Part shown: piece by piece, positions 7,101 to 64,000 of the stretch | Position numbering within the stretch: the first letter of the stretch is position 1 | Layout: every line of letters begins with the position of its first letter | Assembly: GCA_964036195.1 (NCBI GenBank) | Contig: OZ038458.1 | Span: 15,947,832-16,011,831 of the forward strand | DNA: 64,000 nt | Direction: 5' to 3' | Source of the DNA: Sphaerolaimus hirsutus | Lineage: Eukaryota > Nematoda > Chromadorea > Monhysterida > Sphaerolaimidae | Program-made: the position numbers and the translations under genes | The notes under the pieces: generated by a model | Told to the model about the DNA's origin: nothing | Database searches by the model: none | Seen by the model: only the letters and a program-made list of their open reading frames with translations

Positions 7101-9684
7101 GCAATGTTTTGACTTATCAACTTTGTTAATATTTGTTCCAAAAATGTGGCAAGAGTGAAATTACCGTATTACCTCGAAATACCCCCATGGGGGTTTATTA
7201 TTTCGCCAGCAAAATTTGAGGGGGGGTTAATTCGAGGGGGGGGGGGGGGTTTATTCGAGGGGGGGTTTATTGTTTCGTCAGAAATTTTCATAAGAATCGT
7301 AGTAAAAAGTAGGCATTTACATACCCAAAACAGGTAATAAATGTGTCCAAACAGGATATATTTGGACATAAAAACGTAGATAGCTACACAAAATGAGGCT
7401 GCAATGCAAATTAACAGTAATATACATCATGTACATTGCATACATGACGTATTTATTATGTACATGACGTACATCATTCCGAAGGGGGGGGGGTATTTCG
7501 AGGGGGGGTTAATTATTTCCCCAGCCCATTTTGAGGGGGGGTTAATTCGAGGGGGGGTTAATTCAAGGGGGGGATAATTCGAGGTAATACGGTATCGACT
7601 TTGATTTTGATTGGAATTATTGACTTCTTGCTAAAATGTTTTTGCTAATTTCTTGCAAAATGCGATACTTGGACAAGTGACATGAAAAATAGGAAAATTG
7701 TGAAAAATGGACACGAGCAACACTATTATGCCATTTATGTGCTTAACGCAATTATCGAAACCTGGATTTATCAACCTTTAGCAGTGAACTCTAGACTTTT
7801 CATAACAGCTACGACGAAACGGACGAGGAGTGTGCATCATACGAGGCACTGTGGGAGTCCGTAGCACACAAGTTAGTCACCCCTAGATTTTGCCTCCGTT
7901 TGATTTTCAGGCAGCACCTGCATCACAGCGCTAAGACAACCTCCCTGCGGCACTGTCGTTTTACACGACATTTTAAACCTCAGATGACATATTACATGAC
8001 ATTTTACAGAATCTGTGAGTGTCTTTATTTCTCAGAATATACCAATTTTCAGACTTCGTGGTTTGGTAAATGTGGGCAAGGTGGACATCAATGAGAACGA
8101 TGATGTCGCTGACAGGTTCAACATCGATGATGATGATGATGACTGCCCCACTGTGATTCTGTGAGTATCGGCTTTCTACTGGAGTGTACTTGATAGCAAC
8201 CCTTTCATTGATCTTTCCTGGCTCGGAATTTCATTTAGCCAGTCAGTTGTGTTAGGCAGCCAACTGGATGTTGTTCTGGTGTCAATCCCAGACCCTGTAA
8301 AGTGTAAATAAAAGTGTCAAATGTCATGCAAAGTATCAATTGTCATGGCAAATGTAAAGACAAAGTGTCAATTGTCATGCAAAGTTCAGTAATAAAGTCA
8401 TTTCTTTTTGTTTTGATTGACATTTTATTGGACATTGGACACTTTACTTTACACTTTAGAGGGTCTGGGATTGCCCCATGGGAGCAGTCTCAACCCAAGG
8501 CATTTAAAGTGTAAAGTCAAGTATGAAATGTCACGTAAAATGCTCGTGACTGGCACCTGATTGTGAGCCAAACGTATCGCCTATCGGGCTAATCAAGTGA
8601 AGCCCCGGCGCCGAAAAACGGTGCTTGTCGACAGCTGAAAAACATTTACCAAAACAACTGTCGCTGTCCCGCGCTATTGACACTTTACCGTGACTGATCA
8701 TGAACACTATTAGTCCTAAATGAAAACATTCATTTCGAACAGATTCCGCGATGGCAAAATGTACCGATACAGAGACGATGCAGCAGATCTGAAAAGCTTC
8801 GTCGCTTTTGCACTCCACAGGTTCAAGGAACAACGCGGTCAGAAAATTCCAGAGCCGCCCACCCTCTTGTTAGTGTGGATTGTTTGATTAAGTAATATAT
8901 TTTGATCTTAAATGATATTTATTTGTTGACATATTTATGTGCATTTGTACAAATGTTGACATATAAATACTATTATTGTACACTGCGCACAAATTTTCCC
9001 ATTTTTTGCAGAGAGGAGTTGCTAGAAGAATGGAAGGAGGACATATTTGATGTAGTAGTGAGTTACGATGAGCAGTTCTGAATCATTGTGTAGTTGGAAT
9101 GAAAAAACGTACAATAGTTTCTGAGGGGGGTTATACAAGAGGGGAGTTATTGTTCTACGGAATTATGTATCTGTTGTCACTGCCGTAGGCTAATATTGAT
9201 TTGTATTTTTCATTATCACAGCACTGTACTGCATTTGCAGCCCAGGCGTAGCATTATTTGGTGTGTCTGACTTCATTGTTTGTTTTTTTTTGGACCCAAA
9301 GTCTTTTCCACCTATCACAAGGGGGGAGTTATTCAAGTGGGGGACTTATCAAGCGGGGGGTATTCAAGCGGGGGAGTTTTTCAAGGGGGTATTTTTTCCT
9401 CACTCGGCCAACAGGGCCCTTTTTCATCAAAGGGATAACATTTGAGAATATACGGTATTTTGTACCAGGCGCTTTTACTTCAGCACCAGAGGCCAGCACC
9501 ATGGTGCTTTTTACCTCACCACACAACACACAACACCACTTAACTCACTTGTTGCACCCATCTTCAGGAGGAGCACCCACTGGTGTTGGCACCACTACTA
9601 CTAATTGCCTTGGTCACACTTATTTTTGGCACCTATCGATACGGCCCGCAGTTGTACACTGCTATCAAGCAGAAGAGTGCTTGA
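4137..9684 (+). CDS. ER transmembrane protein with two thioredoxin-like domains (PDI/TMX-like)
   Basis: Eight exons join in phase: 4137-4320, 4974-5165, 5357-5501, 7809-7871, 8053-8160, 8743-8868, 9012-9057 and 9568-9684, giving 326 aa. It starts with a signal peptide (MHFGSYLFLFALAVGQVHQ), then an acidic linker. The first thioredoxin-like unit reads LVVFFYDKSNRCPACSRAL, with a CPAC redox-type pair and a VHTFPAMVYF segment holding the usual cis-proline. The second unit (YIMLFYDETDEECASYEALW ... DDDCPTVILF) has no CxxC, so it is probably structural. A hydrophobic segment near the C-terminus (LVLAPLLLIALVTLIFG) is a single membrane span, followed by a short cytosolic tail ending KQKSA, which fits a KxKxx ER-retrieval signal. 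I infer a type I ER membrane protein of the PDI superfamily; I do not recognise the exact orthologue. Its introns are rich in transposons. Confidence 0.85.
4703..4902. repeat. About 200-bp dispersed repeat, family with GTATACTCGGCGGACATCAC-like end
   Basis: This block (a stretch like GATGGGTTATAGTAGGTTTC near the right side and GATGTCCGATGAGTATACC at its end) recurs at about 15215-15395, 25553-25761 and 28818-29010, in both orientations, with AT-rich middles. Partial copies lie near 34850 and 37125. It fills most of intron 1 of the thioredoxin-like gene and fits a MITE, but I could not define a target-site duplication. Confidence 0.6.
6090..6973. mobile_element. hAT-type MITE with GCGCCATGGCGC arrays, 884 bp
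   Basis: The ends are inverted copies of TAGTGATGGAA and are flanked by an exact 8-bp duplication GACTTACC (6082-6089 and 6974-6981), as expected for hAT elements. Both arms are clusters of the palindromic word GGCGCCATGGCGCC and variants; the roughly 400-bp centre is ordinary AT-rich DNA. It sits in intron 3 of the thioredoxin-like gene. Related smaller copies lie at 13159-13311 and 18685-18949, and fragments near 33500 and 42380-42455. Confidence 0.85.
7164..7592. mobile_element. TA-flanked MITE, CCGTATTACCTCGAA ends
   Basis: Inverted ends CCGTATTACCTCGAA... flanked by TA on both sides (162-163 and 593-594 of the 7 kb block) suggest a Tc1/mariner-type non-autonomous element. The inside alternates G-runs with TTATT/TTAATTCGAGG words. 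Sister copies are at 30238-30663, 57316-57617 and 46580-46790. A related subtype with CCGTATATCATCG ends is at 55388-55769, and an eroded copy ends at 9455. Confidence 0.75.
8279..8479. mobile_element. GTGCCAATCCC-type element (introner family copy) inside an intron
   Basis: Left end GGTGTCAATCCCAGACCCTG, right end inverted (GGGTCTGGGATTGCCCC), with inner words such as AAAGTGTCAATTGTCATG repeated in both orientations. It lies in intron 5 of the thioredoxin-like gene (8161-8742) but does not fill it. It is the same family as the elements that exactly form introns at 29205-29394 and 62567-62758. Confidence 0.75.
9121..9455. repeat. Eroded TA-type MITE copy
   Basis: G-run/TTATTCAAG words and a right end TTTGAGAATATACGG followed by TA match the 55388-55769 subtype. 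The left inverted end cannot be recognised. It lies in intron 7 of the thioredoxin-like gene. Confidence 0.5.
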
Positions 9685-12893: not shown

Positions 12894-13086
12894 GGGGGCA
12901 GTCCCAAGCCCTGTAAAGTGTAAAGTAAAGTGTCAAATGTAAAGTCAAATGTAAAGTAAAGTGTCAATCAAAACAAAAAAGAAAATGTTTTATTACTGAA
13001 ATTTGCATGACAATTGGCAGTTTACTTTGCATTTGACTTTACATTTGATACTTTACTTTACACTTTACAGGGCTTGGGATTGCCAC
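12894..13086. mobile_element. Introner-family element, intergenic copy
   Basis: About 193 bp with inverted ends GGGGCAGTCCCAAGCCCTGT / ACAGGGCTTGGGATTGCC and inner AAAGTGTCAAATGTAAAG words. It is flanked by CTG on both sides. Its length is close to that of the two introns of the same family (190 and 192 bp), but here it is outside any gene I can see. Confidence 0.75.
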
Positions 13087-13523: not shown

Positions 13524-16500
13524 ATGGGTCTATCCACACTGATGAGAAATGCTTCACTGCTTCTGTGCTGCGTAACACTCCTCAAAGCGGCCACACTACC
13601 AGTTCAACCCACTGAAGGAGAACCGTGGCCCAAGCCGCAGAAAATGGTCTGCCAGAAAACCAACTTCACAGTGTCGGGCACGAGCTTCAAATTCGTGATC
13701 GACCCGCTCGGCGAGGACAACGACAACAGCAACGGCAGCTGTGAGATCCTCACCAAGGCGGTTGCTCGATATAAAAAGTATCTGTTTGGGCAAAGTGCTG
13801 AGGGGCACAGCAGTGTGGATCTCGATGATGTTGATGGAAACTCTGTTGGTTCAGCTTTTATGGCAACTTACTTTAATCGTTGTATTTAGTTGCTGAGAAG
13901 ACATTTTGCGCTTACTAAACCAAGAACTTAGATCTTTCGGAACTGTAGAGGGGGAGAAATAACATAAGAATTTATTTCTTTTTTAAAATAAGAAACTAGA
14001 TAAGATACTCCACCGCGTGGAACATGTCTGAGTGACAGTGAAATATCAATCATTCACAACCTTACAGACAATCCTGAAGGGCCTGGAAATTTCTGTGGTG
14101 GGCAGCTGTGAGAAATGGCCGTATTTCGGCATGAATGAGCAATGTGAGTTCATAGCACATGAAAAAAACTTAAACATAACACAACAAACAATGAATGAAT
14201 GATTATATTGCATAGTCAAAAAAATTTCAGTGCCACTGCCAGGCATCTTCAATTTTTTTGCGAAATTTTAGATTAACGTGCGATTACCTACGTCAATGCC
14301 TAGAAAATACATCAGTACATAGCAAATATTTACATAAATAAGTGACTCAATGATTGAAACTTTTTGGCTTATCCGTGAAGAAAACACCATGACATTTGAA
14401 AAACTCCGATTGAACCGAGTAAGTAAATTTGTTCACAGTGCTCAAGCGTGTTATAATATGCATGTAAAACCTTCATATACTCTACCCTGCCAGACACGTT
14501 GTCCACGAGCGACAGTTCGGGCATGGCGAAGCTAAGTGCCGCCAGCGTGTGGGGGGCCCTGCGCGGCTTGGAAACCTTCAGCCACCTCTTCATGCACAGA
14601 GACAACAACGTGGTGGGTGATGCAATGATTCTTTTGCTCTTTTTATTTACCTACTTGCAATATTATACGCAAATCACCTCACAGCTGGAAGTGCGCCAAT
14701 GTCAAATCAGCGACTGGCCGCGCTTCCTTCATCGGGGCATACTGCTTGACACATCGCGGCACTATTTGTCAGAGAAAAAGATAATCGAGAATTTGGTTGT
14801 GGAATCGCTTTCATTATAAAAAATAAAAAATGTTTCATTGGATAAAGGAAAAATAATGACAAAATTCTTGCACGCAGGAGCTGCTGGCACAGAACAAATA
14901 CAACGTTTTCCATTGGCACATCGTTGATGATCAGTCATTCCCTTTCGTCAGCGAAACCTATCCGGAACTCAGCGGGAAGGTGCATTTCACAGTTGTAACC
15001 CAGTTGTAGTGTTTTTGCCTTGGCTACGATATGTGTTGAATGTGCAATTTGCAGGGTGCTTATTCCCCGCTGCACGTGTACTCCCCGGCTGCAGTGCAAC
15101 GCATATTGAACACGGCGCGGGAGCTGGGCATCCGGGTCGTGCCCGAATTCGATACACCCGGTTTGCCATACCGCGTTTAATCGCGTAATCGCTATTTGCA
15201 GCGATTTGCCTATATACTCGGCATCAACAAAGTATGCGCAGAATCCTACCATAATTTAATGAATAAAATATTGTGACAAATGTCGTAATTAATTGTAGAA
15301 ACAAACGATTGTTATGAAAAAACGGTATAATATTTGGTCCATCATTCAGATGGGTTATGGTAGGTTTCCATACTAAGTCTAACGTCCACCGAGTACACAC
15401 ACACACATGGTCACCTTACAGGCCACACCACTTCCTGGGGCGCGGGCATCGAGGGGCTGATCACCGACTGCTACAACAGCTCGGGCATGAAGACAGGCCG
15501 GCGGGCGCTACTCGACCCCACCAAGATGAACACCTACGACGTGGTGCTCGCCCTGTTCACGGAGGTGCTCAGGGTGTTTCCGGATAAATTTGTGCACTTG
15601 GGCGGTGATGAAGTGCGCTTTGACTTCAAGTGCTGGTTTGTTTGGTTTACTACAATTTTTAAAAACAACAGGACAATAGAGGCGAAAAACGGGCGGTCTT
15701 TTTAAAAATTTGAAAAGACATGAACAAACAACATTGGCACTCTGACAATACACTATTTTGTTGAAAAAAATTGTGAGAACGGTAAAAAATTAAAGCAACG
15801 CTCCTCCAGTTAGAAAAAAAAAGATAAACACCAGATATTGTCAGAGTAGATCAAGGAGGGGCGGATGAAGTTAGGTAACAGCCATGTAAATACAAACATC
15901 ATCAAAAACTTCGAAAATAAAATTTCGTCAGCCAATCATGAGCGCAGTGGACTTCTCAGACACAGACAAACACACGATGACACACGCAGGACATACAATC
16001 CAAGGGTGAAGGAGTTCATGGATCAGCAGGGATTCCAGACACCCGAGCAGCTGGAGAACTTTTATTTCAAACAGTGAATTGTCTACACATGAGAAAATAT
16101 AGATATAATGAAAAACACACACACATACGAAACATTCAAAAACAACACAGACTACTTCCACTGATCGAGCGAGCGCGCGCTGGCACCGATTACATCGTTT
16201 GGCAGGAAGTGCTCGACAACGAAATCCACGTGAGATCTTTTTTAAATTACACAAGTAAATATTGTATTTATCAACATTCAGGGGGTGCGGAATTAGGTTA
16301 AATAGCAGAGCCTGTCTTTTTGGGTGGCGCGCTTAATTGTTTCTGAAATGATAAATAAATCGACACAACGTCTGAGCGCACACGAGTAGGGGGCACTCCC
16401 AGATCCTGTAAAAGACCCTGTCAAATGGCATGTGTCATGTAAAAGACCCTGTGAAGTGACAAATGCCATGTTACAGGCAGGGACGTACGCAGGATTTTTG

Positions 16501-19500
16501 AGCGGGAGGAGCGGATTGTATACGGAGCCTGGCGAACGGGGGGGGGCGGCGCCCCCCCCCCCCAAAATTTGGCCCTATAGTAAAGGAATGGAGCCATGGC
16601 GCTGGCGCCATTTGTAGGCGCCAGCGCCATGGCAGTATCGGCGTTGGCGTTGGCGCCAACGTCTACCATATAGGTATCTATTGATACCTATGTATGGTAC
16701 TAGGTCCGCTTACTGCACTGTTAGACGCTTTTCTAATGCAATTTGACACCTGAAAATGCATATTAAAGAATGGGGTGGGGATTTGCGCGCTCGCGCGCAA
16801 GAAAATTTTTAAAGTGCCCACAAGTTCGCCTAAGAAAAGTGCCATTTCTGGCAAATTTTTCTGTCCGGCCCGGGAACGGGGGGGGGGGGGCGGCCGCCCC
16901 CCCCGCCCCCCCCGCCCCCCCTGCGTACGTCCTTGGTTACAGGGTCTTTTACATGACACCTGACATTTTACAGTTTTTTTAATACTTTACAGGGTCTTTT
17001 ACGGGTCTGGGAGTGGCAGCAGTTGACAACTTGCATTCACATGTGCACTTTTGGAAGTTTTTGTTGACAACAGAGAGATAACAAATTTGATTTTTTACCT
17101 ACTCATCTAAATGTAAATGAGGCGTCTACTTCTAAAAGTTGACGAGTCCAAAATATGAAAATTTTGAGTTAGGCCCGGAAACGTCATTTGGGGCTACTTC
17201 CGCACATTTTTTATAATTTTCCATAAAAACTTTGACCTCACATCCCATATGGCAAACTGCCAACATTGACATTTTTTGGGAAAAATGCAAAAATTTGGGG
17301 CAGAAGTCGACAAGTCCACCTAGTTTAGTGCAAGAAGTCGACAAGTCCATTCCTCCGCTTCCTTTTTATGGGGAAAAAATAGCAAGAAATGTGATATGTC
17401 CACTATGGACAGCTTCTTCTAAAAGTCGACAAGTGCATAAAATGCCCATAAGGCAGCCTCGGCTTCCCCGGGAACAAAAATGTTTGTTAGTGCAAGAAGT
17501 CGACAAGTCCAATTCCCTCCCAAAAACAGTTTTGCTCTGACCAAATGGAAATTTATGGACACCCAATTTTTCACATAAAAGTTGAGAGCAGGGGCTGAAA
17601 ATTTGACACTTTATTGTCAACATATGGAACTTAATGAAAAGCATGAGAGAGCCAAATTAAACACGCATCACGGGCCTGGAATTGGATCCGAAACTTAAAA
17701 TGCGATTTACTCAAAATCACATTTTGTGGACTTGTCGACTTTTAGAAGTAGAGGCCTCAAATGTATTGTGTAACTTTTATGTAGTGTGTGTAGGACAATA
17801 CGGTGTGGCCTAGTTTGTTAGCCAAGCCGGACTGCCCAAAAAACCCACCAAGGTCACAAAAAACATCCTTGCAGGTGCGCGGGTCCACAATTGCGCACGT
17901 CTGGAAAGGGAATAACCAGGCGGAACGAGCCAAGGAGCTGAGTAGCGTGACGGGTCAGGGCTACCGCGCGCTGCTATCTAGTTGTTGGTACCTCAACTAC
18001 ATACACTATGGTGACGATTGGAGTCCGTACTATTCCTGTGACCCCCAGGATTTTAATGGTGGGTCGGGTGCGAGTGGATAAACTCAGTCTGTGATGGGTG
18101 TGAGTAACCATGGAATAGTTGACAGTGAAGGGAAAACGTCACCAATGCCAAAAGCTCGCAGACTAGCTGCCAGTGACAAATATGGCAGCAACCGCCGGGA
18201 CGAGTAGCGCCAATCACGTGCACCACAGTTGTTTATGCGTATTTGCTTTTACTCGTAAAGTACGCATACTCGAGTAAATAAAAACAGAATACTTTACGCA
18301 TACTTTGGATAAAGTTTGGTACTTTTCACAACTCTGGTGGATATGCAATTAATTTCAAACAGTTACAGACTGGCATAAAACCAACATCTCAACTAAGACC
18401 CGTCGCCCTGCTGAAACACAGTCACACAACAGCAGCGACACAAACGCACCCACACAGGCACGGCGTCGCAGAAGGCGCTCGTGATGGGCGGCGAGGCGTG
18501 CATGTGGGGCGAGTTCGTCGACGACACCAACGTCACGCCCAGACTGTGGCCGCGCGCGTCCATCGTCGCCGAGCGCCTGTGGAGCGCGCAGACGGTCACC
18601 GACACTGCAGACGCGCAGCACCGCGTCGCAGAGCACCGGTGCAGACTCGTTAGGTGCGCGCCACTAAATATTATTGCACTTGAGAAGTGATGGAAAAGCG
18701 CCATGGCGCTTGGTGCTCTTTTACTGTGGCGCTATTGGCGCCATACCCATAAAAACATGGTGCTTCTGGCGCTTGGCGCTATTTCTGCATGGCGCTAGGA
18801 ACAAACTGCGCCGAACAAACAGACTGGCGCTGGCGCTCGGCGCTTTCGTCAAAGCATAAAGCGCCATGGCGCTTCTGGCGCTTGGCGCCATTTTGCTCTG
18901 GCGTCATTGGCGCTTGGCGCCAAAGTCCTGGCGCTTTTTCCATCACTTCATGAGTGAGACTAAATACTCCTCAATGCTATGCAAAGTTTGTCAAAGTAAA
19001 TACCGAGCCTGTAGCTGTACGCACAGAAACTCGGCACGCACAGAAGCCCGTTACGCACAGAAGTTAACTCGGTACGCACAGAAACTCGGCCCGCACATAG
19101 CTGATGCCATGTGCGTGCCGAGGTTCTGTGCGTACCGAGTTTCTGTGCGTACAAAGTTTGTGTGATTTTTCACATTCTCTTCTATTCTATTCCCTATGTA
19201 GCAGTAGTCGACACCCGAAATTTTGCCAACCGTTACATCTGTTTTCTACATATTTGACTTTCGCGATTGCGAATGTAAAATATGTAGAAAACAGCTGTAA
19301 CAGTTGATGAAATTTCAGGTGTCAACTACTGCAACACACCTGAACTCAGATGGCTGACTGGGGACCCACCGCACAGAAGTCCGCCACGCACAGGGCCCAG
19401 TTGTGTGCGTAACGGGCGTCTGTGCGTGGCGGGTTTTGATTCTGTGCGTTACGGGCGCGTGTGCGTAACGGGTTTCTGTGCGTAATGAGCCTGGCCCGTA

Positions 19501-27200: not shown

Positions 27201-30200
27201 AAGGAATAGAGCCATGGCGCTGGCGCCATTTGTAGACGCCAGCGCCATGGCAGTATTGGCGTTGGCGTTGGCGCCAACGTCTACCATATAGGTATCTATT
27301 TATACCTATATATGGTACTAGGTCCGCTTTTGGCACTGTTGGACACTTTTCTAGTGCAATTTGACGCCTGAAAAGACATATTAAAGAATGGGGTGGGAAA
27401 ATGATTTTTGTGTTTTGAGTGTTTATGAGATTAATGCGAATATCAACTTCAGCAGCTGTTCAGGGAATATTGGCGACTCGCACACTAGTTGAAAAGTTGT
27501 GTGTTTACTGCGTTCAGTTGCGTACTAAAAATTAAAAATTTGGTGTTGACACCAAAGCAAAGATGCCACAAAAAAGTGGCACCAAGGTCCAAGTGCTATC
27601 CATCTAGCGATGAACAACTACATTGCCATCTAATCCACTTTTGGACTCTGCCAGGTCAGCCATCGAATTGGGTGAGAGGTAAAAGTCTCCCAGCGGAGTC
27701 GTTAGGTCCCTGAAAAGGTTTTGTATATGGTATTTTTTTCCTTTGGCGCTAGCACCAAATTCGTAATTTTTAGTATACAGCTGTACGCAGTGCTCAACTT
27801 GTCAACTGGTGTGCGGTTGTGTGGGTCAATGATGTCAATAGCTGCTGGCGGTTCAGGTTTACCTGGACAACTATTATTCTGTAACTTCCTTTCGAATGCC
27901 TGCATGTGTGTTTCAACGTGGCTCGGTGCTAAATATGTAGTGTGGGTTCGATTCTAGTCACCTATGATGATTAGGAATTACCGTCCGATTTTTCTGACGA
28001 CACTCCTTTGGCTGCAAACGATAACACTGTCTGAGGTGGCTTTTTAGTGAAAAACCGCAACTACTTTGACGCTTTGAGATGACTTCGGATAATTTATTTT
28101 GAGCCCCCAAAAATAACAAATCCAAAAAGTGGCATTGTTCACACCGGATCGACTCTTCGAATCGTGAACTTTTTCGAAAATTAGTGGGTTTCGGGATCGC
28201 GCTTGAACCCTAAAACTAAAGCCTGCAAAGAAATGCTGCGGCCAAACATGTGGATCCTTCCCTCACTGTGCTGGTGAAGAAATATATCATTTACTGTGCT
28301 GCATTCGAATAAAGTGGACATAGAAAATCCCAAAGAACATGAACGTATAGAAATCCCATGGGATCCAATTAGAAATCCTAAGCTGGTCACATGTTGTCAA
28401 ACTGAGGCGTCAAAGTCTCGCTTAATTCAGATGTAGCACAGTAATTGATATATTTATTTTGTGCATTCGAAGAGATTACATGCCAATCATGATTGGCTGC
28501 AGCGTCCTCTTTTAGCCGGCCTTAGCCTCTTAGCGTCCTCTTTTGATCGGCCTCAGCCATTTTATGGGATAGCCTAACCCTAACTTTACCCTAACCACCT
28601 TCCTGTGCCACCATGTCATCACGGCCATTTTGTGCAGGACGACGAGCAGGGGGATGAGAACGCGCAGCAGCAAGTCGAGCAGGAGAAGCGCGTCTCCATG
28701 GACGACCGCATTCGGCGCGCCGTCGTGCAGCGCCGCACCAGTTCCGACTTCGACACGGACGCAAAACGTTTGCACTTTTCTATTTTACATATTTAGCTTG
28801 ACCGTAGTCTTGCATACGTATACTCGGCGGACATCACACTCAGTGTGGACTTGGACACCTACTTACTATAACCCATCTGTGTAATGAACCAAAATTATAG
28901 TGTTTTTTCATCATAATATTCATCATAATACCATGGAATAAATAATTACAACCTTTATCACAAGATTTTATTCAGTAAATTATGGTAGTATTCTATGCAA
29001 AGTATGCGCTCCACTCCATAGATCACACTCACATAGATCCTTTATTTCTGCATTTCAGGTTTCAAGCCGCGCGACGACGGCCTGCTGTGTTCGCGCAGCC
29101 CGTCTCCAGCCAGGCACCCGGTATCCAACGTGATCCACATTCGATGCCTGCAGCGACCGCTGGCCATATTCGCACTGCACAAATTACTGGCCACTTACGG
29201 CCAGGTGCCAGTCCCAGACCGTGTAAAATGCCCTGTAGAATGTGAAATGTCATGCAAAGTGTCAAAAGTCATGTAAAATGCCCTGCGAAATGGCGACCGA
29301 GTCGCCATTTTGCAGGGCATTTTACATGACTTTTGACACAACATGACATTTTACATTTTACATGGTATTTCACAGGGTCTGGGACTGCCCCCAGTACGAC
29401 CGCACGGAAGGTTTCTGGATCGACAAAATCCGGAGCAATTGCATCGTGTGTTACGAGAGCGACGAGGCGGCCGCGCTGGCCAGGGAGAAGCTGCACAACG
29501 TGCACTGGCCCGACAAGAGCCACAAGGCGCTCAGGGTGGACTTTTCTGATAGGGAGCAGGTGAGACCTTCGTTTTTTTATTTGTGTAGTGAATTATGGTC
29601 ATTGTTTTTCTAATCTGTCTGTGTTTCAGTTGCGACGACATCGCGATGAGGAGAAAGAGGTGGTTACGCGTCCGCTGCCGCCTGGACCGAACTTTGAGGT
29701 TTGTTTGGTGCTTTTTGGATCACTTGTGACAAAGAGTAACAAGGTCTAGTTTCATTTTGATGTCGCTACCAGGGGACAATCCCAGACCATGTAAAGTAAA
29801 AGTAAAGTCAAATTTCGTGTAAAATGTCAATCAAAACAAAAAGAAAAGATTTTATTACTGAACTTTGTCATGACAATTGACACATTGCATGACGTTTTAC
29901 ATGACATTAGATTTTACTTTTCACTTTACAGGGTCTGGGATTGGCATCAGATAACGGTGGTAAACTTTCTGACACAGCTAACTAGGGTGGCCGATGTTTT
30001 TTTTTCAACGTTTTATTTTAAAAACGTTTTTTAAAAAACACGAGGTCCGAAACGTTTTTTTTTTGTTTAAACATCGGCCAAAATTTTTAGTACTAAGCAC
30101 TAGGTATTTTGTAAAATTTTTGCGCAATTTCACACACAAATTGGACCGAACATGTCGTATGAACATGTCGACATAAAAGGGACATTTTTGACACAGATCA

Positions 30201-32056: not shown

Positions 32057-34227
32057 AAAGGGGAAACGAAACTACGGCAAAGTGTTCCAGTCTGTTGCAC
32101 GTCCTTTCGCGTTGTGTTTGTATTATGTACTCAGAGCCAGTTATCCCATATTTTGCGCTGGTTTTGTCGCGTAAGTTCACCCGTTAACCCTTTTTCAGTC
32201 GAGAGCAGATTCGGCGTGACATATTGATCTATTTATAGTCTGATTTGGGCAAATTTACCGATTTTGGGGCCGCCTAGGGTCCAATCTCAGAGCTGCCGGC
32301 GGCTGTCCAGAAATTACATTCCCTCCCCCCGCGAGAACTGGCTGTCCAACACGCGCGCCACACTTTGACCATCAAAAAGCGACAATTTCTGACCAGCGAC
32401 AAAAAATGACAGTTGACTTTTATGTTTCAAGTTGCCGCTTGAATTGACGGGTGGAAATTTTCGCTTTTTGGGTCGGGTGTTGGTGCCGTCGCGCCGCGGG
32501 GCGGGAGGGAGGAGACTCGTCTGGCTGTGGACTGCGCTGTATCTTATTGGTTTATTCAACGCCGACTGCACACTTCGCACGAGGCTACGTCATATTTCGG
32601 CTAAAAGGCGACATAGTTGTCGGCGCCTTAAAAACGATCCTCTTGTGAACGCTTTCTATTTTGAGGATTTTTTTGTTGCTAAAATATGATTAACGCCGGT
32701 GAGAAGTGTGCAGCCGGCCATCTTTTTACCATTGACGCGTGTGGAGGAGTCTATTTTAATCAGTGGTGTCTGGAGGAGTTGTTCTATTCCATTGGAGGGA
32801 CGATATACGTTGTTTTTTGCGAACAGTGAACGTTTTTTAGTGCCGTACTGTTTGTATGCGATGAGGAATAAATATAATTTTGGTTTTGTACATTTTTCCA
32901 AAACAAAAAGAAACCCTACACACACGCTACATAGCTGACAACTACGCTAGAAATCAACTGGTTCCCATCCCGAGTGATAGCTTGCCGACAGGTCGCACTA
33001 CGCATTATCGTATTTAGGTATACACGTACTTCACGCTGCCATTCTACATTGCGCATACCGCAATTTTTCCATTCATTTACGACATAATTAGACACTTGTA
33101 TTTGAACGTCGTTCATCAGCAAGCTTTGAATTGGGCCATTTGCATCTTCGCGCATCTAGTCACTTTCCCGCGACATTACATAGTTGGCTCCTGTTTGTTT
33201 GACCGACCCCGACTGCCTGTTGTGTGCAGCAGTAATACCCGCCTCCAAGCATAGTACATGTTTAACGGCTGAGTACCTACATGGCCTATTCCCGCCATTG
33301 CCACGGCCAAGCGAATGGCATAGGTTCCCGCTTATAAGTCATCAGGTGGTCGCTCAGGGGGGGGGGGTGATGCGGTTTTGTTATGCACTTTTTCAGTTGC
33401 CAATTATGAACTACATTTTACAATACTTGATTCAGTCACCTTTCAGTTGAAATTTGTATTTGACGATGCGTATTTACGGTTTTAATTGCCGTATAAATAG
33501 TGATGGAATGGCGCTGGCCCCATTTGAGGGATTTCTGAAAGGCGCCATGGCGCTCTTGGCTCCAGAGTTCGCTGACATTGATTCACCGCTTGGATTGTGG
33601 ATTCTGTATTCCTTCAAAAGATTCATGTTACCAAATTTACCCATTTGCGCTGTAACCTAATAATATTTTTTCTCTCCATAGGGAACTTATTCGAGATACA
33701 CGGTATTTGTCAAAGTAAGTGCGGCCATTCTCGCATCAAAACTCCGCTTAGTGTTCATTCATCACCGAAATTCAACCCATAGCCGGAAATCGTAAATATG
33801 TATACCCGGCACTATCACCAGTAGCTGTGCACATGTAAAACGAACTGACAAATGAAAAACTGCAAGCTTAGCTGATACATTTGGGGGCACCGAGAGTTTA
33901 CAATTACGTTACAAGTGAAGAGCGCATTTCAAACACAATAAATAACGGTGGTAATTGATGTGAGAACAGATGAGCCACGACGGGGAAATGCACGCGATCA
34001 GATACTTTTGTACTAATTCTAAACCGAACCAGTGAATTTCGGCCGCGCTAGTAGGCACGCCAGCCAACACGATTTTGTGGTAAAACCTGTGGAGCTCGAC
34101 CAAACATGTTCAAAATACTTATGTAAAGTTACTATGCAGGCACCACCCATATATATACTGACGCGAACGCAATTCTAAGGAAAATGTACAAATAACCTTA
34201 ACAAGGCAACTGGCATCTGATACAAGG

Positions 34228-34478
34228 TGGCAATCCCAAGCCCGGTAAAGTAAAGTCAAATGTAAAGTAAAGTGTCAAATGCAAAGTAAAGTGTCAATGG
34301 TGTATCCAAATCTTATGTCGAAAATTAAGATTTGGATACGAAAAAAAAAGATTTGGATACACAATTGACACTTTACATTTGACGGTGCATTTGACTTTCA
34401 CTTTACTTTACATTTGACTTTGCATTTCACTTTACATTTGACACTTTACTTTACACTTTACAGGGCTTGGGACTGCCC
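34228..34478. mobile_element. Introner-family element with 5-bp duplication
   Basis: Ends TGGCAATCCCAAGCC and GGCTTGGGACTGCCC are flanked by CAAGG on both sides (34223-34227 and 34479-34483). Inner words are AAAGTGTCAAATG and AGATTTGGATAC. This is the clearest target-site duplication for the family. Confidence 0.75.
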
Positions 34479-35416
34479 CAAGGTGTGGTAAACTGCTCCC
34501 CATTTCGGCAGCCACCGTGGCATTAGATGCTGACTGCAAAAGTGCCAAAGTTGGTTGAAATGCCGGTCAATTTTTTCCTGGCCAATTTGCATGTCATTGG
34601 TGACATTTTGCATTGACCCCCCTTCAAATGCCTTAGGGGTGCATTTTGGGGTATGTTTTTTTATGCGAATACCATCGTTCTTAATCTAAAAATTGTTCCA
34701 GCAAAAAAAAAGAAAAAAACATTTCAGGAAAAAACATTTGACACTTGTACATGACTCCGCCTTTTTCTTTTTGAAATGTTTTACTTTTTTGTGAAAGTGA
34801 ATACATAAGTATCCTGCTCGCGCGTTATCGACCAAGACATAAATAATTTTGGGCGCATACTTTGCGGTCCGACGAGTATACCAATAAAATGCCAGTAAAT
34901 ACCAGTTCTTTTAGAAAGTACGCGAGCACAGAAAACGTATTTCAAACAGGTTTTTTATAGGCTTTTTCAATGCATAAAGGAAACAAAGGGAGAGAAAAGC
35001 TAAAAACAGGGTAGAAATATCCAAAATAGCATAAAAATAGGCAAAAACACAGTAACTAGTGAATCTGATGGTGAAAAAGTTTGAAAATATCTGATTTTGA
35101 GCGAAAATTGGGGCAAAGTTTCTCAAAAATACCCACTTTTACGTTTTCTGGGGATAAAAGTGATTTACTCACGTTTACTCTTTAGTTAAAGTAAAAAATA
35201 AATACTTAACGTTTTCTGTACTCACCTGTGAGTAAAAAATAAATACTTTACATTTACGTTTACTTTCGAAAGAGTACAGTACTTTTAACAACTCTGCTTT
35301 AAACCCACGGGGGCAGTGTCTAACTTGGGTGGAACAGCAAAAATGACACAAACATAGTCATGTATTTATATGGCGGCCGCACTCGGTGGGTTGCCATGCC
35401 AGTCATCGCTTCCTGG

Positions 35417-49300: not shown

Positions 49301-52300
49301 ACAACTAAAATATTTATGAAAAAAGGTCGGCCCAATTGACTTACGGATGTCAACTTAACCGACCGTTTTTCATAAATATTTTAGTGTAACGGCTGCGGCG
49401 TTCAATATAATTTTTCTCTGTAGGAACTGAATGGAGTCATGGCGTATGGCGCCATTTGTAGGCGTTGGCGCCAATGTATACTTCTAATATGTGGTAACTA
49501 TTCATACTTAAATATGTGGTACTAGGTAGCGTAATGAGTACATTTATAATGGTGTTTTTACTCTGGAAACATGTATAAGGAAGTGGGGAATTGTTGACAT
49601 AACCTTACAAAATCGCTTTAGAAAAGTGCCATCCTGGCACATCTTATGTCCAATTCGGGAAGGCGGGGGCGCCATCCCCCTCCCCCGCCCCCGCGTTCGT
49701 CCTTGAGCGAAACCAATCCGAACCTCAGACAAGAGCACGGGCGCGCGTCGCCTAGCCACGCCGGCGTACTTGGCCAGGGGGCCGAGCAGGCGGGCGAGCT
49801 CGTCCAGCAGCGTCCAGGTGGCCTCGTCGCACCGGCCCAGGTCGATCTCGGACGCCAGCGAGGCGATGATCGATCGTTGCCGCAGCAGGTCCACGCACAG
49901 CGTGTACGTGTCTGGCCAGCTGCAACCGATCACAATATTTACATATGGGCGGAGTCGGTGTGAAATCGAAGTAAATACATACATAAATATGCACATAAAA
50001 AACCCCCAGAGGGTTTCCACCAACAACTAGGGTTTACTGAAGAAAATCGCTAGCAAAATTTTTGGTACTGCACTGGGTTAAATTTTTGGTACTTATGCAT
50101 TCACATTCGCCTCCAAAATGAATTAGCAAGTGTTCTCAGCAAGAAAATGCAATTTCTGCAAAAAAAAATGAAACTGTTGATGAGATGTGATTCACCAGCA
50201 ATATGACAAATCAATTACCTTTATAATTGAAAATAATGACCTTTCATGCTTTGTAAAATGTTTTAATAATACTCTTTCCTGCTTTAAATGTCAGAAGTAC
50301 AAATTAGTACTTCAATGAAAAGCTCTACAGTAATTATAAAACCAAAGAAAACATAGCAGTACACTTTCTGTCATTTTATATAGCTTTTAGTTTCATCCAA
50401 ATATATTCATCTCAGAGGGTAATTTCAAAGAAAAATGAAACTCAGCTTGAATCAGCGATTTAAAAATATATATTTTTAACGAACCCTACCCAGAACTCTG
50501 CAGTATCACCAACGATACTGACAATTCAAATCCCAATGGTTGATTTTCGAAAAGGTTTTGTTTTTGCATATGCGTGTGCAAAAAAACTAAGCAAACAGGC
50601 ACTTACAATCTTTCCACGGCATCGTGTGTCTTGGGTAATGTGACGCGCTGCGACGCGGTGGCAGATTCTGCTATGCGCGCCACGAGGGAATGGGCAGCGG
50701 CCAGTGCGCTGTTCAGCTCCGTCGACGTGCTGGCCAGTTCCGACTCGGTCATAGCTCTCTGCGCATTGTACACATTGCCTCAGAGCTCATTCGCCAGACA
50801 ACCAAAACTAGGGCGTCAAAAAAATTTCACGGAAAACGGAAATTTTCTTGAAACTTCATATGTATGTATCGTAAATGTGTTAATTGTGGTAGCATATCTA
50901 TGCTATGTTGAAAAGTAACGGAAAAATACCGGAAAACGGAAAAAATGGGCCATAAAAATGGAAACGGAAAGCTAACAATTTTTCAGCTGCCAGAAAACGA
51001 ATAAGTAACAAAAATTCGGCTGCCGGAGAACGGAAAGGTAAAAAATTCTCAGTTGCCGGAAAACGGAAAGCGAAAAGGTAAAACATTTTCCTGCGGAAAA
51101 ACAGGAACGGAAAACGGGAATTTGACACCCTAACCAAAACCAAAGCCACAAACCTTCAATACAGCACTATAGCACGGCAGAACCCTGCCCTCAAACCCTG
51201 GATGTTGGCGCCAGGCGTCAGCCAGCTGCTGTCCGGGGTCCTCCAAGCCGCACACGACCCTTATCACGGCCGTGGTGCTCACGTTGAAGTTGACCAACGT
51301 TGTGGTCAACGCCGACAGCAAAGCGTCCGGCGTGAAATCATCGTGGAAACGCGACACGGATAGAAAAGCGTGCTCAGGTCCGCAATTTGTTTGATCGAAC
51401 CAATGAGCCGTGATGTTTAGAATTTGCGCCTCGTCGGTGGATGTGCTGGAAAATCGTGATTGCTGTGGGCAACGATGTGGCGGGCATAAATAGTTATGAT
51501 GTTCAGTACGTTAGGGTTGACTGATAAGGCTGGCTGGTGAGCAGTTAGTCGGTTGATCCAATTGACAATTTTTCACTTAATCATCAGAATGTGACTACTA
51601 TATGCATGACAACACACACCCCATATGAAGGGTGTGCTTCTAAAAGTACTGATCTACAAAAAATCGATTTTGAGATAATCGCAATTGAAAGTTTGGAGTA
51701 TGCAATACCCATACATGGGTATTGGGTATGGGAATTTTGGGTATGGGTATTTCAGCCATATTGTTGGGTATCCACATGCATGGGTATAATCATTGATTAT
51801 ACACATAACACTAGCTATATAAAATTTAGTGAATTATATTTTTGTAGTACAGTACATTTTAAACGGACAAATTGGTAATAGCATGTAGATCGGTATTTTT
51901 TAAAGCACAAAATCAGAAAGCTGTAGATCGGTACTTTAACCCATAATAAAAAAGCACAAAATGAGTTTTTGCTCAATCGGACGCCGATCTGACATCGGTA
52001 CTTTCAGAAGCACAAAAAAAAAAGTGCAGATCGGTACATTTAAAAGAACAATTTTGAAAAAAGTGTGTAGATCGGTACTTTTAAAGACACAAAAGCTGAA
52101 AAAGCTTGTAGATCGGTACTTTTAAAATTTCAAAAACTGTATTTTGCGATTTTTTCGCTTTTTTCGACCCCCCATATATAGGGTTCAAACGGGATTGACT
52201 TTACGGGATCGGGATCGGGATCGGGATTCACTTTTTGAGATTTCGGGATCGGGATCGGGATCGGGATTGGGGTTTCGGGATCGAGATCGGGATTGGTATT

Positions 52301-59800: not shown

Positions 59801-62800
59801 CAGTATTTATAATGTCATTGTTGTTGGAGTGCTAAATTTGAACCGAGAAAACGCTGATATACTTTTTTTGCAACATGCCCTCAAGCAATTAGGTTATAAC
59901 GATGAACTGTAATATCTACCAATTGTTATTTGTCTGATACACTTTGATTCATCATGTTTTTCTTCTATTTTCTACCATTGAGTGATGTAAAGCTTGTAAA
60001 AATCACTTGTACCATTCACATTTCAGTAAAGAGATGATTAAACATGTGTGCAACCACATGAAAATACAATATGCCACTTGAAATATGCCTTGCTATACCA
60101 AAAGCATATCGCAATATCGAATATCGAAAATATCGAAATATCGAATATCGACCATTTTTCAATATCGAATATCGAATATCGATATCGAGGTTCCATATCG
60201 TATCGATATCGAATATCGAGTTTCAGAAAAAAATATCGAATATCGAATATCGATATCAAAAATTTTGAAAAAATATCGAATATCGAATATCGATATCGAA
60301 AAGTCATATAGTTTGAACCCTAGGGGTTTGTGTTGATATGAAGTTGATTCTACAATCTTTTCAAGTGAATTCAAATTCCTTCTCTACAAACCTCGTGGGT
60401 GGCGATAACCTCCGATAGCAAGACGGGCGCACGCCGGGCACTGAGGCCGACGTATTTCGCGAGCGGGCGGAAGGCGCGCTCAGTCTCGGCTATCACGGCC
60501 CACGTGCCGTCATCCAGCGGCGTCAAACCGAGTTCGTTCTACGAAGCGTTGTTAGATCAAATCGATGAAGGGGTTTCCAATGGGGGAGGTTGGGGGGGGG
60601 TTAGTACTATACGCTCTCATACCAATTTTGAGCTGTTACACCTACTTTTAGCGATTTTTCTTCATTTTCTTCCCTCTACACCCTGAAAAAGCCTTTATAT
60701 GTTCACCCGCAACCCCCCCCCATTTTTTCCAGCTATCTATCCCGGAGTAGGGTTGGAAAAAAAACGTTTTTTTTGAACTCGATGTTTTTAAAAAAAAAAC
60801 AACGTTTTTTTTAATAAAAAACGTTTTTTTTCAAAAGCTCCCAGATATGACCTTGTGTCAACATATATAGGTATATCAGACAGAAGCAATACTCTGTGAT
60901 GTTATATATGACCAAATAATGTCTGTGGAGCCATGGGATAGCATTATAAGTGGTGATTTGTGTCAAAAATATCCATTTTTCGTCGACATATCGTTTGTAT
61001 ATCGCCTTATAGTCGAATGTTCATGACCTAAGGTAAAGTTTGGCACGGAATAGTGATGAAACAAGGTTATAAAAGGAGGTTGTTACTTTGGGAGTGAAGT
61101 TACACACTGTGGAGGTACATGGAAGCACATTACTTCAATATTATATACTACACCGACATATGACAGCTTATTAACCCATGGTAGCAAGGACGTATCCAGG
61201 GGGGGGGGCGGGGGGGCTGCAGCCCCCCCCCCTTCCCGGGTGAGACCGAAAAAGTCCCGGAAACTGCAAGTTTTTATCTATATTTTTCGATTATTCTTAA
61301 AAAATTTGTGCGCAAGCGCGCAATTTCTCCCCCATACATTGTATTTTCAGCGGATCGGCCCCTGTAAACCAATATCTTTGGAAATGAACACATTTTTGCG
61401 AATTTCGCCGTATATGTATGCATAATTACATACATATCAAGCGGTTCCTGGCGTTGGCGCCAACGCCAATAGCGCCATGGCGTGGCGCCTTTCCGTGGCG
61501 CTAGCGCCAAAACGCGTTTCCGTCCCTATAAAGGGAAAATTTTAGGGGGGGGGGGCGTTCGCCGGCCCCCGTAAACAAGCAGCCCCCCCGCTCGAAAATC
61601 CTGGATACGTCCCTGCATGGTAGCATATATAAATGGATACTTTGATACTAAAAATGCCACAAAACCAATGAAAACAACCACCAAGGTCAATTTGTGTGTG
61701 AAATTGCGCGCTTGCGCGCAAAAATTTTGCAAAATACCTAGTGCTTAGTACTAAAAATTTCGGTCGTTTTAAAAAAAAACAACATTTCGGACGTCATGTT
61801 TTTTTAAAAAAACAACGTTTTTTTAATAAAAAACGTTTAAAAACATCGGCCAACCCTATCCCGGAGGCCGCTCAACTATCTATCCAACCCCGCGGAGGGT
61901 CAAAATCTAGGAGATCTCGGAATCGATGATAATTTTAACTGGCCGCAAAGTGAACTACTCACCGAAATTTCATCAACCACTTTCCTGGACTTTGAAAGTT
62001 GTTCGCACAGTCTGTAGGGCGCGATCCAGGTGTCCTGCTCTTCTGGAGTCCCCTCCAATGTCTCCAGCTTGAATGGCAGCCTCTCAACACCTGAGGGCGA
62101 CTGGGCGACGCGCGTGGCCAGCACTCGAGCGCCAGCTAGCGCCATTTGCAGTTCAGACGAACTGCGCGACACCGACGCCGACGAGATGCAGTTCTGAGCG
62201 CGAAGCAAGCTATTCCAAAGTTTGCTGTCGATCTATCTGTCCGTGCATTTAATTGACGGCGGAAATTTCGAAGACTGATAAATTCAGTAATCAGTTTACC
62301 AGAAAAAATTATTTTCATCAACATCAACAGCAGTTGACGGGTTCCTCATTCTGGTCAACTCAAATGCGTTCAAAGCTGATTTATCAGTTTCCAAAATCTC
62401 GGCCGCAAACTAGTGTGCTTCAAGCAATGGTATTCTCACCTTGAGTGCAGCATGATAACAGGGCAGCGCCCTCTCACCGAACGCGTCTCGCCAGTCAAAC
62501 GTGCGGATGGGCCGGCCGCCCACGAGCACTCTGAGCACCTGTGACAGGCTCAAGTCGTACTGCTCCCTGTGGGCAGTCCCATACCCTGTAAAAAGCCCTG
62601 TAAAATGTCAAATGTCATGCAAAGTGTCAAAAGTCATGTAAAATGCCCTGGAAAATGGCAACCGTGTTATCATTTTGCAGGGCATTTTACATGACTTTTG
62701 ACACTTTGCATGACATTTGACATTTTACAGAGCCTTTTACAGTGTCAGGGATTGGCACCAGGTGTCTGCGAAGAACGCGGCCACGGACTCGCTGTTGACG

Positions 62801-64000
62801 GGCATGCGCCTCACGCCCATGCATGCGTACTTTGGCTCGCCGTCGCCCGTGTCGTACCAGTGACCGGTCAGCGTGCACAAGGCTCTGCGGCCGTCGTTCG
62901 CCGATGCGGAGTGTGACGACCAGCTGCGGTGGGGCGATGGAATGAATTGGGGGGTTGAATTTTAGGGAGGGGTACACCAGATTTCATGTCGTTCCAATTT
63001 TGTTGTGCAAGTATGGTTCAAACGTTACGTGATTGCATTTTCGGGATCGGGATTACTTTATTTGAGTTTCGGGATCGGGATTAGTTTTTTTGAGTTTCGG
63101 GATTTGGGTTTAGGGATCGAGGATTTTAGACAAAGTTCTGATATGAAAGGGCTTTCATTAATTTGCCATAAAAATGGTCTTAAAACACACCCACAAATAA
63201 CAAACATACAACAACATGGGAAGACACGAAAGTCAGGTGAACCCCACTCGAAATACCCCCCCCCCCAATACGTCCTGATCGCACACAGAAGGCAACCAAC
63301 TCAGAGTGGAAGCAAACGGCGATCCTGGACCGGTAGCGCAGTTGTTCGGCTACATACGTTCTCAGTTTCGAAGTGAGCTTGTCCTGGAGGCGGAGCGTGG
63401 CCGCAAAAGTGGGCGGAGTCCAGCGCGGATTTAGTTCGCGCACCAACTCCACGAAGAGATCGTCCTCGCCTGCGAGTAGATCGCTATTAGTAGTTCTTTA
63501 CGACCAATCTACTACAGTTTTTAACTCTACAATGAATTTCACAAAAAAATGTTTTTGGGATTATCGACTTTTAGAAGTAGACTGTTCAATTACAGCCTGT
63601 TCTGTCGATTAGAAAACTCAAAAGTCCAAGATTCGCCACCAGTTGTAATACCCACTGCGCGGCAAAATGCTGTAAAGTGTAACCGCAGCCTACAATGGAT
63701 AACAAAAAAAACAACAGGACTGAACTAGACAGACATATTTTCGAACTGGTGTCAGGATCTAGGCTAGCCAGCATGAGCGCATAGCGCTCATCAGCTTTGT
63801 GTGGGGCCGCGTTGCTCTGGCGATAGCTGCTGGAAAGCGACTTTTTCGGTGTGCGAGAGTCCAATCCCATTCTCTTAATTGCCGTCGCCGGCGCGGGCAC
63901 GCATTTATAATCTCCAGTCTGCAGCACGGGCCCCGTAAACTCGTAGTGCTTGCGCAGCAGGTGCAGCGCCATGTTGTTGCTGTTGGGCAACATGACGCTG
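56843..64000 (-). CDS. hAT transposase-derived protein, copy B (5' end beyond the window)
   Basis: Nine minus-strand exons: 64000-63747 (runs off the edge), 63469-63301, 62923-62759, 62566-62440, 62193-61963, 60538-60392, 59128-58898, 57858-57662 and 57119-56843 (stop). The edge exon shows the end of a BED finger (LPNSNNMALHLLRKHYEF, Hx4H). Then come ELNPRWTPPT, a core with FHSDWSSHS where the first catalytic Asp is kept, LPCYHAALK, LLDPRVRAML, and ALAWWFAGDGCTRWPNLSAV of the hAT dimerisation domain with a divergent Gln-rich C-terminus. The second DDE Asp motif is not seen. It is clearly paralogous to copy A along its whole length, with several shared introns in the same phase and several that differ. 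One intron (62567-62758) is an introner-family element. Function unknown; likely a domesticated DNA-binding protein. Confidence 0.87.
57316..57617. mobile_element. TA-flanked MITE, CCGTATTACCTCGAA ends
   Basis: A 302-bp copy of the 7164-7592 family, TA at 57314-57315 and 57618-57619. It is in the last intron of copy B, 44 bp from exon 8. Confidence 0.75.
58343..58782. mobile_element. hAT-type MITE, CAGGGCCGTATCCAGG ends
   Basis: 8-bp duplication CTTTTGTT (58335-58342 and 58783-58790). The inside is close to 23342-23752, including the ATATTTACATACATATACAG stretch. It is in intron 7 of copy B (as numbered from the edge exon). Confidence 0.9.
59506..60322. mobile_element. hAT-type element, TAGGGTTCAAACG ends, filled with ATATCG repeats
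   Basis: Ends TAGGGTTCAAACGATAT and ATAGTTTGAACCCTA, 8-bp duplication GGGGTTTG (59498-59505 and 60323-60330). Both arms are arrays of ATATCGAATATCG; the centre (59710-60100) is unique. It has the same ends as 52179-52780 but a different hexamer inside. Confidence 0.88.
60748..61858. mobile_element. hAT-type element, TAGGGTTGG ends
   Basis: Ends TAGGGTTGGAAAAAAAACG / GGCCAACCCTA, 8-bp duplication TCCCGGAG (60740-60747 and 61859-61866). It is close to 22658-23332 in sequence and interrupted by the MITE 61185-61615. Confidence 0.88.
61185..61615. mobile_element. hAT-type MITE, CAAGGACGTATCCAGG ends
   Basis: 8-bp duplication CATGGTAG (61177-61184 and 61616-61623). It is the innermost of three nested insertions. 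Confidence 0.9.
62567..62758 (-). mobile_element. Introner-like element forming a whole intron of copy B
   Basis: On the coding strand the 192-bp intron starts GTGCCAATCCCTGACACTG and ends TATGGGACTGCCCACAG. The arms are inverted repeats of GTCAAATGTCATGCAAAGTG and the centre carries ATGCCCTG...CAGGGCAT, nearly the same as the Acinus intron 29205-29394. Splicing within codon TG|G (Trp) keeps the frame. Paralogue A has no intron here. Confidence 0.9.
63010..63130. repeat. Fragment of the TAGGGTTCAAACG / GGGATCGGG family
   Basis: TATGGTTCAAACG followed by TTTTCGGGATCGGGATTA words. No right end is seen. It lies in the copy B intron between 62924 and 63300. Confidence 0.55.

Follow-up and report, generated by a model that had tools for sequence, protein, structure and literature searches.

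How a coding exon that is uninterrupted in one gene comes to be split by an intron in a related copy is the question raised by a 64,000-nucleotide stretch of the nematode Sphaerolaimus hirsutus genome (GCA_964036195.1, contig OZ038458.1, positions 15,947,832 to 16,011,831 of the forward strand; hereafter the window, numbered from its first letter). The stretch carries two minus-strand genes, A and B, and an exon that is continuous in gene A is divided in gene B by a 192-bp near-palindromic interval. The origin of introns is a long-standing question, and this interval appears to belong to an abundant introner family in an animal, whose target choice is of a recognisable type and which retains a trace of events after intron birth. 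We consider it probable, at about 0.86, that the gene B intron and its family are introners, namely a palindromic miniature inverted-repeat transposable element (MITE) that inserted into coding exons and is spliced out exactly. This figure applies to that core only, and the mechanism suggested below for the copies ending in TG is much less certain. The relevant features are as follows.

62567..62758, minus strand: gene B intron, GT...AG, consisting of the 189-bp element and the 3' target copy CAG
62570..62758, minus strand: palindromic MITE, 189 bp, with its GT end at the 5' side in the coding sense
62759..62761, minus strand: 5' target-site copy CTG, exonic
62567..62569, minus strand: 3' target-site copy CAG, intronic, source of the acceptor AG
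62759..62923, minus strand: first part of the split coding exon of gene B (hAT transposase-like), upstream of the element
62440..62566, minus strand: second part of the split coding exon of gene B, downstream of the element
51154..51445, minus strand: homologous exon of gene A, uninterrupted

The interval 62758-62567, read on the minus strand, starts with GTGCCAATCCC and ends with GGGACTGCCCACAG. It comprises the 189-bp near-palindrome and a single 3-bp target copy with nothing left over, and its inverted arms (62666-62762 and 62566-62662) are 88% complementary with a 3-nt spacer. The predicted RNA fold of the intron has an energy of -135.5 kcal/mol (z -18.7), and none of 200 shuffled sequences was equally stable. 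When the exon is read through the unspliced element, in-frame stop codons are encountered inside it. When the element is removed, gene B reads ...FFADT/W/EQYDLS... and aligns with residues 15-97 of 97 of gene A (blastp E 1e-10, single pair), with a block of 31 residues without a gap spanning the junction. The original prediction, which had described both the leftover-free near-palindrome and the gapless match of about 31 residues, was borne out on both points. The further exons of A and B also match each other, and an insertion after gene duplication fits the element-free copy A. Once joined, the B exon has the same length as the A exon (292 nt). This was discarded as evidence, because in the alignment the extra 7 residues at the start of B are offset by insertions in A, so that the equal length is a coincidence.

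The C-terminal parts of A and B resemble a hAT dimerisation region (E 6e-4 and 0.009, under Pfam's own cut-off), and together with the shared exons this leads us to regard them as hAT transposase-like genes of unknown use. Both have several exons on the minus strand (A, 47345-49852; B, 57002-60538) and may be domesticated or decaying.

A search of the assembly (348 Mb, 762 contigs) for the 192-bp sequence, which had been proposed as a check on the original prediction, revealed a large family. Two exact right-end patterns (22-mers) occurred 1,372 times, 815 with CAG and 557 with CTG, an excess that has no matching left-end CAG count as its control; the exact left end with CTG occurred 587 times, and the reversed controls gave zero for both ends. 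Four element queries yielded 2029, 2535, 4333, and 2654 first-look candidates, with 40 scored places each, and 100 unique copies were analyzed. Eighty of these came from queries 1-3, which carried a 3' CAG and gave 88 loci before duplicates were removed and one locus was lost (L061, a sense LRR gene with CAG/CAG, which is outside the 100 copies but is included in the homology cases below), and 20 came from the approximately 33 new places found with query 4, which did not carry it. The consensus is 189 bp long and self-complementary at 182 of the 189 positions, and the mean divergence from it is 5.6% for copies in the coding sense and 6.0% for the others. The family is thus short, non-coding, bounded by inverted repeats, flanked by target duplications, and present in high copy number, as expected of a MITE. 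In three gene regions, two family copies lie within about 1 kb: L039 (BCKDHA; 724(-)/1501), L027 (a GPCR gene; 492/1501), and L033 (an unnamed gene; 665/1501).

The orientation of the copies within genes was then compared using a codon score trained on recognised copies, every one of which is in sense. With this score, the GT end lies 5' in the coding sense in 36 of the 100 copies and 2 are reversed, the remainder being undecided (26) or having non-coding flanks (36); of the two reversed calls, one is a mis-scored sense SDR gene and the other is doubtful.

In addition, homology spanning the junction after removal of the element was found in 17 cases, all with the GT end 5' in the coding sense. 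These comprise 16 of 30 sense empty-site proteins, which had been picked for coding-looking flanks (Pfam, E <= 0.01), and acinus in the window (PDB). In the first set of ten proteins, nine matched: L054 (Lig_chan), L079 (IRK), L012 (Patched), L027 (7tm_1), L093 (kinase), L091 (EF-hand), L085 (filament), L099 (TOG), and L028 (Na_Ca_ex). In the second, two matched, L039 (E1_dh) and L069 (kinase), with L074 and L077 matching on one side only. In the third, five matched: L107 (Amidase_2), L103 (Patched), L036 (adh_short, for which an AG close by served as the joining point, the 3' target copy being rearranged), L057 (DUF2452), and L061 (LRR). The Ion_trans match of L034 stops at the junction and was not counted, and the L089 protein, which contained a stretch of L091, gave no match. 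Several of the 17 cases, including L012, L027, L036, L103, and L107, are outside the 36 copies scored as coding-sense. Antisense controls gave no junction-spanning match in ten (best E 0.049); they were drawn from copies without a recognised sense gene and include L043, which has GT at both ends.

The same sequence is therefore found as an apparent intron at unrelated positions in different genes, 17 times, with similarity extending to both splice boundaries and nothing left over. These results support the insertion of the element into the coding exon of gene B and its exact removal, as was originally proposed: insertions elsewhere, with the same end and orientation and with 3-bp target duplications, arose independently of that locus. 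An older intron at the gene B position, overwritten by the element and lost from copy A, is highly improbable, since the gene B intron consists of the element and a target copy alone, as do those at unrelated positions in other genes.

Three of the cases with CTG on both sides have gapless matches across the junction. For L054, an AMPA-type receptor (iGluR), 79 residues align without a gap to GluA4 through SYTANLAAFLTVE (E 2.2e-36). For L079, a Kir channel, 65 residues align without a gap to Kir2.2 (E 1.1e-19), and for L039, 52 residues do so to BCKDHA (E 9.8e-12). Further exons of each of these genes are open in the surrounding DNA. These loci bear on the reading in which nothing is removed and the copies are plain MITE insertions that break host genes, as pseudogenes or as segregating or decaying copies. 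The stop codons inside the element and the unknown use of the hAT transposase-like gene B would be expected under it. However, the insertions lie inside conserved domains with open flanks, more exons are open at the three loci looked at further, the orientation bias is strong and the GT conserved, and the mean divergence from the consensus is alike in the target classes (5.7-6.2%), so that we consider this reading very unlikely.

The orientation bias points to the terminal GT as the donor, because both consensus arms carry the same internal GTAAAA and ACAG and differ mainly in their outermost letters, GTGCC at one end and GGGGC at the other. The donor end GTGCCA is changed at 1 of 216 letters in the 36 coding-sense copies, compared with 23 of 384 in the other 64 (p 3e-4). 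Strong donors inside the element (18 and 30 nt in), combined with internal AGs, were tried by hand and rejected, as they break the frame.

These data also bear on removal without splice sites. SOS splicing recognises paired inverted repeats and acts independently of orientation and splice sites. In such a system, the transposon hairpin in the mRNA would be cut out by a nuclease and the ends joined by RTCB. The two window introns of gene B and acinus are each predicted to fold as one long hairpin, which would provide the base-paired inverted repeats of an SOS substrate, and the CTG/CTG copies end without an AG. SOS splicing is described as removing transposons from animal mRNAs in a review (PMC13247085). 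A system that reads only the hairpin should nevertheless ignore orientation, whereas 36 of the 38 scored coding copies have the GT end 5', as do all 17 junction-spanning cases, though the latter were picked mostly from sense frames. The GT end is also better kept in coding copies, and T-to-A changes are favoured at the 3' end. Removal of this type is unlikely.

The triplets around the 100 copies, read with the GT end on the left, were CAG/CAG in 33, CTG/CTG in 24, CTG/CAG in 13, CAG/CTG in 1, and other combinations in 29. Both sides carry CAG or CTG in 71 copies, and the two triplets are identical in 57. A 5' CTG is paired with a 3' CTG in 24 copies, with CAG in 13, with CCG in 4, and with other triplets in five, whereas copies with a 5' CAG have CAG in 33, CGG in 2, CTG in 1, and single others. 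The 20 copies from query 4 show CAG/CAG in 7, CTG/CTG in 4, CTG/CAG in 1, CAG/CTG in none, and others in 8, too few to establish the asymmetry alone. In the 3' copy after a 5' CTG, T-to-A changes number 13 and T-to-C changes 4, compared with 54 and 131, respectively, inside the elements (p 2e-4). The sampled right triplets comprise 52 CAG and 27 CTG, against 43 and 46 on the left (p 0.03, with three of the four queries ending in CAG). All 36 coding-sense copies have CNG as their 3' triplet (CAG 22, CTG 9, CCG 4, CGG 1), and this triplet is followed by G in 31 of them, compared with 40 of the other 64 (p 0.013). The triplet counts and the excess of T-to-A changes together indicate that AG seems to be preferred, not required. 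Visual inspection of the sequence flanking the two main window copies showed no 8-bp target duplications of the kind made by hAT elements.

For gene B, with CTG before and CAG after the element, the original prediction had proposed that one base change in a 3-bp duplication could have made the acceptor AG. The 13 CTG/CAG copies against 1 CAG/CTG fit this proposal, but the direction is less certain, as it is possible that the order was the opposite, with CAG/CAG present first and the 5' copy later changed to CTG.

Six of the 17 homology cases, i.e. iGluR, Kir, BCKDHA, 7tm_1, Patched, and Amidase_2, are CTG/CTG, implying either GT-TG introns or AG-independent removal. If these copies were removed instead as GC-AG introns, with a GC donor located two bases into the element and the internal TTTTACAG as acceptor, the combination would be in frame (worked by hand) and add seven residues. 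However, these residues would fall at SYTANL/AAF in iGluR and in Kir, where the exact join aligns without a gap, as well as within a 7tm_1 domain, and we regard this alternative as scarcely credible.

The sequence of events that would best account for these observations starts with a non-autonomous palindromic DNA transposon, with a NuwaI/PHIS-like target choice, inserting at C(C)WG(G) in a coding exon and duplicating 3 bp. The left end of the element would provide the donor GT and the 3' target copy the acceptor, which would be AG where the target reads CAG in the coding sense. Where it reads CTG, the newborn intron would be GT...TG and its removal would suffice for the survival of the gene, until a later T-to-A change in the 3' copy produced a normal AG, the last state (CTG/CAG) being the one in which gene B may now be found. 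In the TG class, early recognition of an AG by the spliceosome would take place at the internal TTTTACAG, which lies 19 nt from the end, and the hairpin would bury this AG and bring the donor and the terminal triplet together for ligation at the terminal CWG. In its full form, this account holds that hundreds of introns stem from the MITE and that about half of these arose as GT...TG and are nevertheless removed exactly from core genes such as those for glutamate receptors and Kir channels, with the hairpin and the internal AG letting the spliceosome ligate at a non-AG triplet and T-to-A changes normalising the site later, so that GT-TG, GT-CG, and GT-AG would form a birth series in one genome. 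We propose it tentatively, its chances being somewhat less than even. The ends, target copies, orientation, open frames, and junction-spanning homology can be read directly from the sequences; that splicing occurs, and by which chemistry, we infer from frame and homology.

Several points weigh against the introner interpretation or its extension to the TG class. Considered by itself, gene B could be a hAT-like gene in decay in which the insertion is not spliced, and the sample, drawn from the copies most similar to exonic queries, may be unrepresentative of the family. The matches of L012, L028, L061, and L069 pass the junction by just 3-4 residues on one side, and the scores of L093, L099, and L069 are under Pfam's own cut-off. 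The usual donor is GTRAGT, which GTGCCA fits poorly after position 3. A better-looking acceptor, the TTTTACAG site already mentioned, lies upstream of the end, and its use would shift the frame. An AG at this position does not set the TG class apart: it is present in 13 of the 14 coding-sense copies that lack a terminal AG, and it is equally common in the coding-sense copies that have one (20 of 22) and in the other copies (62 of 64). Among the coding-sense copies, 16 have a 5' CAG and 19 a 5' CTG, about equal numbers, with no sign of an early loss of TG insertions, which would be odd if TG splices badly. Human TG acceptors, as described in PMC2374985, are never the sole acceptor and always have an AG no more than 28 nt away, and AG-to-TG mutants switch to neighbouring AGs.

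The family resembles several described systems. The introners with terminal inverted repeats described in PMC9860276, a survey reporting introners in only two animal groups, are likewise non-autonomous DNA elements with short target copies that leave the mRNA length unchanged, and in some of them one splice site comes with the element while the target copy provides the other. The present family differs from these in being almost completely palindromic (182/189) and in its many exon insertions without a terminal AG, a class that the main text of the survey does not describe. NuwaI, of the PHIS superfamily, is reported in animals with 5'-CWG-3' target copies and a terminal inverted repeat usually starting with GGG (PMC4482050). 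The present element can be likened to it, as its target duplications are CWG (the 71 copies above) and its right terminus, GGGGCAGTCCC, begins with GGG, with GG at the right end in 63 of 81 copies. It differs from NuwaI in that the left end of the consensus is GTG, forming the donor, and that only palindromic derivatives of about 190 bp are known here. The element, which had not been recognised in the original prediction, can now be placed beside NuwaI by its target site, but by only one of the two terminal features.

The Amoebophrya introner elements (PMC7789003) share hairpin inverted repeats, direct repeats of 3-5 nt at exon borders, and many non-canonical borders with the present family. 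That paper found no inverted repeats specific to a family, whereas the copies here belong to a single sequence family that has a defined target and supplies a GT donor. In the nonconventional introns of euglenids, as described in PMC4770533 and PMC6221363, RNA structure draws the intron ends close to each other and the borders can be non-canonical, but the conserved GT end and the orientation bias seen here point to U1-dependent splicing. The TG 3' splice sites of U2 introns (PMC2374985) are similar in that TG is used with a nearby AG, at up to 28 nt there and at 19 nt here; there, TG is described only as an alternative to an AG product, whereas in this family such a product would lose the reading frame. 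A literature search on introners with Harbinger, MITEs, or animals and on TG acceptors, covering the main text of the survey, found no description of the element family; the species may be among the animals surveyed. Introners as such are known; this family is larger and stranger than first described, and its introns apparently have a GT-TG state at birth. Should the CTG class indeed be spliced, it would contradict the rule by which U2 introns require an AG at the 3' splice site, and it would constitute a natural experiment at many sites on what makes a non-AG acceptor work.

The window contains further copies of the family, which the original prediction does not mention.

29205..29394, plus strand: second introner, a 187-bp element and the 3' CAG in the acinus (ACIN1) RRM exon, CAG/CAG
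29059..29204, plus strand: acinus RRM exon part upstream, its start inferred from an AG
29395..29559, plus strand: acinus RRM exon part downstream, its end inferred from a GT
29773..29947, plus strand: diverged copy downstream of the acinus exons, CAG/CAG, without a terminal GT
8279..8477, plus strand: diverged copy, flanking triplets CTG/ATG
12895..13086, minus strand: diverged copy, CTG/CTG on the plus strand, GT...CAG on the minus strand; empty site without an open frame
16390..17019, plus strand: family copy with another repeat nested inside
34227..34479, plus strand: diverged copy, AAG/AAG target copies; empty site without an open frame

The copy at 29205-29394 is the nearest to the gene B element, with 85% identity and the same kind of ends. 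It lies within the RRM exon of acinus, and both of its target copies are CAG. The exon joined without the element encodes an RRM that matches PDB 6g6s (E 1.7e-15), with a one-residue gap near the junction; a search for protein homologues with the acinus piece at E <= 0.001 returned none. The predicted hairpin of this intron has a z of -20.5.

In the diverged copies of the window the ends are paired, with 14 end matches compared with 0.57 expected. The copies at 12895-13086, 34227-34479, and 8279-8477 have different arms (TGTAAAGTGTAAAGTAAAG) but similar terminal ends, and perhaps form a sister subfamily. A Pfam search with ten large open reading frames of the window gave no match under 0.05, and Rfam gave none at the gathering threshold. 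An exact pattern search of viral contigs found no relatives of the element, the window's own genome possibly being outside that search.

The start of the repeat that splits the copy at 16390-17019 (approximately 16.48-16.93 kb) resembles, by eye, stretches at 27.1, 58.8, and 61.6 kb. Short repeats of the GATCCC type form long arrays at 52200-52800, upstream of the gene A exon, and a separate large inverted repeat is located at 44193-44642, with arms of 196 nt that are 93% complementary and 58 nt apart.

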